From positions 1 to 33,135 of the forward strand of contig JAVZMI010000012.1 in NCBI GenBank assembly GCA_038883335.1: 33,135 nucleotides of DNA, read 5' to 3'. Below are positions 23,174 to 25,050 of this stretch, in pieces. Source of the DNA: Candidatus Bathyarchaeia archaeon. GTDB lineage: Archaea > Thermoproteota > Bathyarchaeia > Hecatellales > Hecatellaceae. A program made the translations under genes and the position numbers. Numbering within the stretch: the first letter of the stretch is position 1; each line of letters starts with the position of its first letter. Below the pieces are notes generated by a model, which saw nothing but the letters and a program-made list of their open reading frames with translations, had not been told where the DNA came from and ran no database searches.

Positions 23174-24358
23174 CTAACGGGAACCAGCGTATGCCACAAT
23201 TCTACTCGTTAGGTCCTCGATGGCGTTGGTCTTGAGCGCTGTCTCCCTAAACTCCCTAGCCTTAGTAGAATAATCTTTAGAGTTGAGGAGTCTATCGGAC
23301 GCGTTGAGTAGGATCTCTGCCGATATCCTTCTCTGGTCAAGCACCTCGGCTACACCAAGCATCAACGCTGTTTTAGCATTCCCGATTTGCTCAGTCTGCT
23401 CTTGGGTTGGGATCAGAATTAGAGGCTTCCCATAAGCTAAACTCTGGACAGTAGTAGTGTGGCCGCCTCTCCCCACAACGATGTCGCTGGCTTTCAGCAT
23501 CTCGAACCGCTGTGGCAGCCAATTGTAAACCTTAACGTTCTCTCCATAATGGCTGTTGTTAGCGTTGTGCGAATTACCCAAGTCCCCCAGAGATACTACC
23601 ACTTGGTAGCGGTCTGGGAACTTTTTGAATGCCTTCAGAAGCTTCTCCCCAAACCACCTTCTCTCCGAGCGTGGGCCGCTTAGGGCGGCGTAGATGAGAG
23701 GTCTGTCGTCAAGTCCAAACTTCTTACGGATCTCACCAACTTCAGGTAGCTCCTCATACCTGACTGGAAGGATTGGGCCGATGAACTTTACCTTTTCCCG
23801 GTATATTTTCGGGATAAGCATGTTTTGTGCCGCAATTGTATATGGTGGTGGAAAGTCTGGAACTATGATTGTGTCGCTCAGACCCCAGAGAGAAGCTACC
23901 ACTCCAAGGCAGAAAGCCTTGGCAAGGTTTGACACAAACCGGTGGTGGACGAAGCCTGGGGCGATAATATATAATTGGTTAAGTATCGTGAGAACTGGCT
24001 TGCCGAGCATCTTCCCAGCTATTATGGAGGATAGACGGGTGTCTGAAACAATAACATCAGGATTAAACGATGCAATATGCGCAATCTCAGAGACTACCTG
24101 CCTGCCAAAGAATATGAGGTTTCTCACCATGAACCACCGGAATGAACGCCAAGGGTCAACCGCCCCATCCGGCCAATTCCAATACTGGAGGCTTGGAGAT
24201 AAGACGGCTCTGAAACCTGCACTTCTCACATAGTCTACAGCATCCGCATAGGTTGAGAAGAGGGTCTCACAGCCACCTCTATCTAACCTTTTGGCGACCT
24301 CGATACAGCGCCCCGCGTGGCCGAGTCCGATTCCGCAAGGTGCAAAGTAGACTCTGAG
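23174..24358 (-). CDS. MurG/GT28-like glycosyltransferase with disrupted or unrecognised start
   Basis: GT-B fold sugar transferase. The C-terminal half has the nucleotide-sugar site (DIVVGRGGHTTTVQSLAYGK) and IPTQEQTEQIGNA. The first canonical in-frame start is GTG at 24229, but the frame stays open upstream and encodes the essential N-terminal loop (RVYFAPCGIGLGHAGRCIEV) up to about 24358, so the 24229 start would delete the first strand and glycine-rich motif. Between 24358 and the in-frame TAG (24394-24396) there is no ATG, GTG, TTG or CTG. An ATG at 24368-24366 with AGGA well placed upstream lies one base out of frame; removing one base would give M-P-A-A-R-V-Y-F. A recent frameshift, a sequencing indel, or a non-standard start are possible. 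The acceptor is unknown. Confidence 0.75.
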   Translation of the reverse strand, partial: LRVYFAPCGIGLGHAGRCIEVAKRLDRGGCETLFSTYADAVDYVRSAGFRAVLSPSLQYWNWPDGAVDPWRSFRWFMVRNLIFFGRQVVSEIAHIASFNPDVIVSDTRLSSIIAGKMLGKPVLTILNQLYIIAPGFVHHRFVSNLAKAFCLGVVASLWGLSDTIIVPDFPPPYTIAAQNMLIPKIYREKVKFIGPILPVRYEELPEVGEIRKKFGLDDRPLIYAALSGPRSERRWFGEKLLKAFKKFPDRYQVVVSLGDLGNSHNANNSHYGENVKVYNWLPQRFEMLKASDIVVGRGGHTTTVQSLAYGKPLILIPTQEQTEQIGNAKTALMLGVAEVLDQRRISAEILLNASDRLLNSKDYSTKAREFRETALKTNAIEDLTSRIVAYAGSR

Positions 24359-24420
24359 CTGCTGGCATTCTGGAGGTTCCTTCGAGATAACCTATCACCC
24401 CTTAGCCTCAAGCACCACCC

Positions 24421-25050
24421 CTACCGAAGGCTCACCCTCTTGACAGCCCCTTTGGGCGTCTCCTCCATGAAAATTATGGCTTGGAACTTGTAAACCTTAG
24501 TGCCGTTTAGAAGCCATGAGTCCGGAGTTAGACCTGCCTTCATACAGCAGTTAGACAAGAATTCCTCCTCATCCCACCGCCACTCCACAGGAACCTGAGG
24601 TAAGAGAAGCCCCCTGAATCCTCCTCTCTCAACCACCAAACCATCCTCACCGATCCTCACTTGGCGTGGGTAATCTTTAGGGTTCTTCGCTTCTATGAGT
24701 TGCAAAGGCGTCAGGACACTTACCTCCACCAAGATTCGATCTAGCTCTTCAACCGTGAGTGGGTGGAACCTCGGATCGCGGAAGGCCGCATTGAAAGCGG
24801 AGTCTATGGTTGCCTCTGCAAGGGGTAAAATAGCTTCTGGGTAGCCTATACAACCCCTCAGCTCCATACCTTCGTCTGTGATCTTGTTAAGGGTGACAAA
24901 GACTCCACACTCAGTCTTCAACTTGTTGGGTACATCTCCCGGAGGCTTCAGCCTCCTTTTGTTTAGGAGGTATTCGGTTATCGCCGCCCTAGCAAGCCTC
25001 ACTAGGAGTGCTCCCTCCTCGTCTGTGAGTGTAAAATTCAACTTCTCCAC
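24421..25050 (-). CDS. AMMECR1-domain protein
   Basis: Conserved archaeal/eukaryotic AMMECR1 family protein, 209 residues, of unknown biochemical role. The hallmark LRGCIG motif is seen as MELRGCIGYPEAILPL (about residues 62-77), followed by AFRDPRFHPLTVEELDRILVEVSVL and GLLLPQVPVEWRWDEEEFLSNCCMKAGL, all standard family blocks. GTG start at 25050, three bases after the Mut7-C stop, so it is co-transcribed with that gene and dihydroorotase. Confidence 0.93.
   Translation of the reverse strand: MEKLNFTLTDEEGALLVRLARAAITEYLLNKRRLKPPGDVPNKLKTECGVFVTLNKITDEGMELRGCIGYPEAILPLAEATIDSAFNAAFRDPRFHPLTVEELDRILVEVSVLTPLQLIEAKNPKDYPRQVRIGEDGLVVERGGFRGLLLPQVPVEWRWDEEEFLSNCCMKAGLTPDSWLLNGTKVYKFQAIIFMEETPKGAVKRVSLR

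Follow-up and report, generated by a model that had tools for sequence, protein, structure and literature searches.

A glycosyltransferase gene of the Hecatellales with a probable AUC start codon behind a strong Shine-Dalgarno site

The window, i.e., the whole analyzed stretch of 33,135 nucleotides from a genome of the Hecatellales (Bathyarchaeia), carries on its minus strand a glycosyltransferase gene with no canonical start codon in front of its conserved N-terminus. We conclude, at a probability of roughly three in four, that this is an intact gene for a GT-B enzyme and that its translation begins at the near-cognate AUC codon at 24388-24386. An unusual start is supported because the codon follows a strong Shine-Dalgarno site, because orthologues with ATC, ATT and ACG were found, and because another gene of the same genome has ATA replacing GTG. 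An earlier note on this DNA had offered an indel, an unusual start or a frameshift as options; it is the unusual start that gained support, at ATC 24388, a codon not named there.

Results

Gene extent and conserved N-terminus

The open glycosyltransferase frame occupies 23174-24391 on the minus strand of the window and runs for 405 codons without a stop. The host genome (G000) comprises 1.22 Mb, is a draft in 18 contigs and is 98.9% complete. The features of the locus are as follows.

24421..25050, minus: AMMECR1 gene directly upstream (PF01871, 183.7 bits)
24393..24403, minus: Shine-Dalgarno site AAGGGGTGATA, forming a duplex of -11.9 kcal/mol with AUCACCUCCU, the genome's own 16S 3' end
24392..24397, minus: in-frame stops TGA-TAG (TGA 24397-24395, TAG 24394-24392), upstream end of the frame
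24386..24388, minus: ATC (AUC), proposed as the start; in frame and separated from the Shine-Dalgarno site by 4 nt
24366..24368, minus: off-frame ATG, basis of the indel explanation, one base out of frame, site of -4.0 kcal/mol
24356..24358, minus: CTC at the usual start position (ATG, TTG or GTG in most orthologues); -0.1 kcal/mol, without a Shine-Dalgarno site
24227..24229, minus: GTG, first in-frame canonical codon, where an automatic call would start; weak site, -3.3 kcal/mol
23174..24388, minus: glycosyltransferase gene when begun at the proposed AUC, 404 codons and a stop, with homologues along the frame

The protein belongs to PF04101, scoring 69.3 bits against a curated cut-off of 22, and matches PF13528 with 40.4 bits (cut-off 25). 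For TIGR00661, the family of the MJ1255/VC2487 glycosyltransferases, 105.1 bits were obtained against a cut-off of 195.9, making the protein a relative and no member by that rule. A structural model predicted from a 24-sequence alignment reached a mean pLDDT of 86.7. Its best fold matches were glycosyltransferases such as OleD, UGT109A1 and CalG1, which we take to be GT-B enzymes.

As the earlier note had stated, no ATG, GTG, TTG or CTG occurs in this frame when reading upstream from GTG 24229 to the TAG, which lies at 24394-24392 and had been placed at 24394-24396 by a small slip. The extension above GTG 24229 reads VISKEPPECQQ-LRVYFAPCGIGLGHAGR... and, again in agreement with the earlier note, includes the conserved first strand and the G-x-G-x-G-H loop. 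Because residues G20, G24, H25 and R28 in LRVYFAPCGIGLGHAGR are invariant in alignments of 15 and of 24 sequences, the extension is, judged from the sequence, real protein. In the model, residues 1-12 are coil, and a strand (13-18) and a helix (23-38) follow within the extension; a start at GTG 24229 would drop both of them together with strand 42-47 and most of helix 49-57. Automatic annotation would shorten genes with near-cognate starts or call them broken, and here 53 residues would be lost, removing the first strands of the enzyme.

The Shine-Dalgarno site and the proposed start

The earlier note had overlooked the strong AAGGGGTGATA site at 24403-24393, which is also designated the GGGGUGAU site and is followed after 4 nt by the in-frame ATC 24388. 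ATG, GTG and TTG are absent from all frames 0-15 nt past this site, so that there is nothing else for it to serve. Its -11.9 kcal/mol were reached by none of the 26 other genes in the window, taking for each the best canonical start within 30 codons, and by 1 of 154 canonical orthologues at their own start. On both strands of the window, 8 of 3134 AUH codons have a site at least this strong at a spacing of 2-9, and among first canonical starts in 332 ORFs of the host genome, the 5% with the strongest sites attain -11.0 kcal/mol. The intergenic stretch is rich in G and contains a second G-rich site, of -11.2 kcal/mol, which ends 1 nt before TTG 24411. With no canonical start upstream of the conserved sequence and a codon at a usable distance behind a site, the gene is a probable member of those with near-cognate starts.

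Searching the genus retrieved the host genome alone, and a single-protein scan of genome contigs returned no relative. The nearest orthologue, from outside the genus, is 52% identical and has GTG at the usual start position.

In the proposed mechanism, the 16S tail would anchor the AUC in the P site so firmly that the initiator tRNA (CAU) could pair with it, matching two of its three positions. We infer from this that initiation would be carried out by the normal initiator tRNA, the AUC being held by the 16S tail. The protein would begin with methionine, and about ten extra residues (M-SKEPPECQQ) would precede the conserved strand. Output of the glycosyltransferase from an AUC start is possibly lower or regulated. 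Loss of the fidelity factor aIF1 was considered as a cause and rejected: a SUI1 (aIF1) match was present in 23 of the 31 genomes searched, G000 included, so loss of that factor is not the cause.

Start codons of orthologues

Orthologues were drawn from searches of 41 and 256 genomes, of which 38 and 148 matched at E-values of 0.001 and 1e-40, respectively, from the best 80 of 159 loci of titled records and from 93 short stretches; together, these 228 loci gave 158 distinct N-termini, that of the window included. L032, L033 and L138 had been omitted beforehand, L032 and L033 being two pieces of a distant homologue in the related genome G001, and four listed places (G100, G221, G236 and the second place of G185) did not enter the survey.

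An ATG, GTG or TTG start in the main frame is present in 154 of the 158 N-termini, and in 124 of these 154 it is the residue directly ahead of R/K-V/I-Y. Comparing the N-terminus among relatives, as the earlier note had suggested, thus left four of 158 without a canonical start and with near-cognate codons: the window gene (ATC), L042 (ATC), L127 (ATT) and L160 (ACG). L042 and L127 are not independent because they belong to one genus; their proteins are 85% identical and have the site AAGGGGGG in common. The window gene and L160 come from two other families. In L042, the ATC sits at the usual start residue, just before R/K-V/I-Y. The proposed AUC of the window gene precedes the usual position by 10 codons. 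Only 1 of the 154 canonical orthologues (L043) has its nearest start that far upstream, an ATG with no site in front of it; this sequence was excluded from the orthologues lacking a canonical start.

Sites of the near-cognate orthologues are stronger than those of the canonical ones, both at the start (one-sided Mann-Whitney p = 0.0006) and over an identical 55-nt region for all (one-sided Mann-Whitney p = 0.006). At the start, each of the four beats at least 148 of the 154 canonical orthologues, and the sites of L042, L127 and L160 are equalled by 5 or 6 of them. When the best site anywhere in the 55 nt is taken, 7, 20, 30 and 30 of the 154 equal the four cases, 7 being the number for the window gene. 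Orthologues starting with TTG have stronger sites than those starting with ATG (p = 0.0013), which agrees with the compensation reported in the available part of PMC5622118.

Probable near-cognate starts in the same genome and in relatives

A scan of G000 beyond the window gene covered 353 kb and 332 ORFs. In the region ahead of first canonical starts, near-cognate codons had a strong site in front of them no more often than the remaining codons did (5 of 255 vs. 34 of 1849, p = 0.52). Taken alone, a strong site preceding such a codon has no diagnostic value; enrichment is seen only in genes whose homology demands an upstream start. One of the five scan hits is an antiporter-D/NADH-dehydrogenase-like gene (G000:C6:32911) with ATA as start candidate, whose best NCBIfam scores lie under their cut-offs. 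Its relative in G001, 68% identical, has a GTG exactly aligned with the ATA. The leaders of this pair are nearly the same, with a site of -11.9 kcal/mol at 4 nt in both, and the change from GTG to ATA comprises two substitutions and zero indels.

The homology-based comparison comprised 139 reciprocal pairs between stretches of G000 and 800 kb of G001 and made use of homology upstream of the first canonical codon. Four ORFs judged from sequence to be antisense to rRNA (L298, L323 and two in L343) were removed by hand from the counts made by rule, here and in the control described below. The rule called for a site of -7.5 kcal/mol or better followed at 3-9 nt by a near-cognate codon, with a minimum of 8 residues. 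With these thresholds, fixed after the candidates had been seen, it singled out 6 of 11 genes needing an upstream start and 4 of 93 others (one-sided Fisher p = 5e-5), or 5 of 10 without the window gene. The remaining 5 of the 11 have no such near-cognate codon.

After curation, 4 firm near-cognate starts and 1 ambiguous one were counted among the 139 conserved genes in G000, and 3 firm and 1 ambiguous in G001. The firm cases in G000 are the antiporter-D-like gene (ATA), CdhA (CTG), a gene without an NCBIfam match which we take to be DUF72-like (CTG), and the window gene (ATC). CdhA, the alpha subunit of CO dehydrogenase/acetyl-CoA synthase (L236:3831, minus; TIGR00314 with 1132.8 bits, cut-off 781.3), has its CTG aligned with an ATG in G001, and ATG, GTG and TTG are absent in every frame from -25 to +20. 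It fails the rule because its site is moderate, at only -6.4 kcal/mol. The glycerol-1-phosphate dehydrogenase of G000 (L240) has an ACG and counts as ambiguous because an ATG follows six codons later; it falls below the 8-residue rule and outside the 11 genes. In G001, the firm cases are a NuoM-like gene, whose ACG is aligned with an ATG of its partner, fibrillarin (ACG) and a presumably NucS-like gene (ACG or ATC). Fibrillarin, identified by a family match (L278:2174, minus), has its ACG behind a site of -11.3 kcal/mol, and its first canonical codon is codon 50. For both CdhA (CTG) and fibrillarin (ACG), near-cognate starts are likely.

Several of the 14 pair listings were set aside: A141, B555 and A200 with a plausible normal start, the presumably Rad50-like B533 as the ambiguous case of G001, one listing as antisense to rRNA, and A68, RNase HII, for another defect. 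In this last gene (G000, L235, minus, ~5540-5500, C6), named RNase HII by us from its sequence, about 31 extra out-of-frame bases lie between GVDDAGR and GPVIGP. A stretch of 90 nt spanning the insert folds at -33.6 kcal/mol; it shows GGGGA...UCCCC pairing, and a 3-nt bulge sits where the 5' joint would be expected, but by eye a cut at the corresponding 3' position would leave the frame off by one. The insert could be an intron, a sign of decay or an assembly fault.

Two single-contig genomes from another family of the phylum, G309 and G350 (194 pairs), were intended as a negative control. Here, the rule singled out 3 of 9 genes needing an upstream start vs. 9 of 136 (p = 0.028), and thus the practice is not confined to the Hecatellales. 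Three genes of G350 (L342, L346) have ATA, ATT and ACG as likely starts and G309 has none; curation accordingly gave 3 firm cases among 194 conserved genes in G350 and 0 among 194 in G309. The 18 listings from these two genomes consisted of 3 near-cognate cases (y25, y31 and y126), 3 ORFs antisense to rRNA and 12 ordinary or unclear ones. Pooling both genome pairs under the same rule gave 9 of 20 vs. 13 of 229 (p = 5e-6). Near-cognate starts hence look like a low-frequency archaeal habit, not peculiar to the Hecatellales and absent in the G309 sample.

Alternative explanations

A sequencing or assembly indel, with one base wrong in 24359-24367, would make ATG 24368 the true start of the glycosyltransferase. 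This codon, off-frame by one base as the earlier note had recognized, is situated roughly three codons upstream of the usual start; 7 of 154 orthologues start at -3 to -5, and the assembly is a draft. Followed in its own frame, it leads to what by eye is a short unrelated peptide. However, homopolymers in 24359-24367 are no longer than two bases, and the 20 other window proteins scanned, each with a Pfam family match, show no visible frameshift or split gene. The ribosome site of ATG 24368, called good in the earlier note, is weak (-4.0 kcal/mol), and the -11.9 kcal/mol site would be left unexplained. L160, CdhA, the DUF72-like gene and fibrillarin, moreover, have no canonical codon nearby in any frame, so that a single indel cannot explain the whole pattern. 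For the glycosyltransferase gene on its own, we retain a one-base indel as an unlikely explanation. A programmed frameshift, the other option of the earlier note, would start at the off-frame ATG 24368 or at TTG 24411 and then shift into the main frame. Both codons are present, and TTG 24411 has the -11.2 kcal/mol site 1 nt before it, but no slippery heptamer or other signal was seen by eye, the shift from TTG 24411 would have to come past the in-frame TAG, and in 154 of 158 orthologues the main frame has a canonical start of its own. The chance of such a frameshift appears very slim.

Gene decay commonly begins with loss of the normal start, and such a start is missing here. Against decay stand the 405 codons without a stop and the invariant residues, which are kept at the N-terminus too. 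Likewise, a short product from GTG 24229 would depend on a weak site (-3.3 kcal/mol) and, according to the model, would be without the opening strands of the fold; we consider decay or such a product improbable. The CTC at 24358, finally, falls where most orthologues start (124 of 154), but it mismatches ATG at two positions and has no Shine-Dalgarno site (-0.1 kcal/mol), which leaves a start at this codon hardly credible.

Discussion

The proposed initiation at the AUC of the window gene has several precedents in single genes. E. coli infC, which codes for IF3, starts with AUU and is autoregulated through start discrimination. It resembles the window gene as a real gene with an AUH start codon, but it is bacterial and autoregulated, and nothing of that kind was seen for the window gene. 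Closer in lineage, the Staphylothermus gene for L12ae lacks a valid start, and ATC was inferred from an alignment (PMC2678158). Like the window gene, it is archaeal and without a canonical start, with ATC inferred; it differs in being a single case from another gene and lineage, with no Shine-Dalgarno analysis in the portion of PMC2678158 available to us. For the Asgard (Kariarchaeaceae) tubulin atubA, an ATT start was inferred (PMC13394414, available portion). As in the window gene, a rare AUH start was spotted through a missing first strand, with a ribosome site at a plausible distance, whereas atubA is a single gene of another lineage, its start likewise inferred. The corresponding portion of PMC8211752 names no archaeal gene with a near-cognate start.

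According to the part of PMC5622118 at hand, weak GUG and UUG starts are compensated by stronger Shine-Dalgarno sites. The present cases similarly combine a weaker start codon with a stronger site, but that work, in the same part, covers AUG, GUG and UUG, in contrast to AUC, AUU, AUA, ACG and CUG here. The window leader has nearly the same layout as the model archaeal leader given in the excerpt of PMC6237735, i.e., GGAGGUGAU, four bases and AUG; the excerpt also reports that Sulfolobus aIF1 favors discrimination against non-canonical starts. Archaeal start selection combines eukaryote-like factors (aIF1, aIF1A and aIF2) with bacteria-like Shine-Dalgarno pairing. Genes starting with ACG, AUA or AUC behind very strong sites would provide natural mRNAs on which to test whether the factors or the pairing determine the start.

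Isolated near-cognate starts are already known; what is new is their recurrence, including in central genes. In the open-licence literature, we found no published account of near-cognate starts across Bathyarchaeia or of their recurrence in central genes. A broader reading, on which we are evenly divided, is that archaea, Bathyarchaeia included, routinely start up to ~3% of conserved genes at AUC, AUU, AUA, ACG or CUG, with strong Shine-Dalgarno pairing taking over start selection in most of them. Central genes (CdhA, fibrillarin and perhaps glycerol-1-phosphate dehydrogenase) would be among these, and callers limited to ATG, GTG and TTG would miss or truncate them.

The AMMECR1 neighbor

The order on the minus strand is AMMECR1 (25050-24421), the glycosyltransferase frame (24391-23174) and an acetyl-CoA-synthetase-like gene; AMMECR1 and the glycosyltransferase are probably co-transcribed. 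The two genes form a conserved pair: of 81 distinct AMMECR1 loci, 67 have the glycosyltransferase next on the strand of AMMECR1, within 42 nt in 59 of the 67 and most often at 4 nt, counted from the stop to the usual start. The distance of 62 nt in the window is not among the 67 distances.

Two further observations concern AMMECR1 itself. In L007, from another Hecatellales genome, and in L039, the AMMECR1 gene has no in-frame canonical start and an ACG 5 nt behind a site of -14.9 kcal/mol. In six other genomes (G019, G022, G043, G059, G060 and G224), AMMECR1 and the glycosyltransferase may share a frame of 600-632 codons with one stop, which is TAG in all six; this stop was seen to part the two genes in L012 (G022) only. 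The single TAG in these frames may reflect chance or readthrough.
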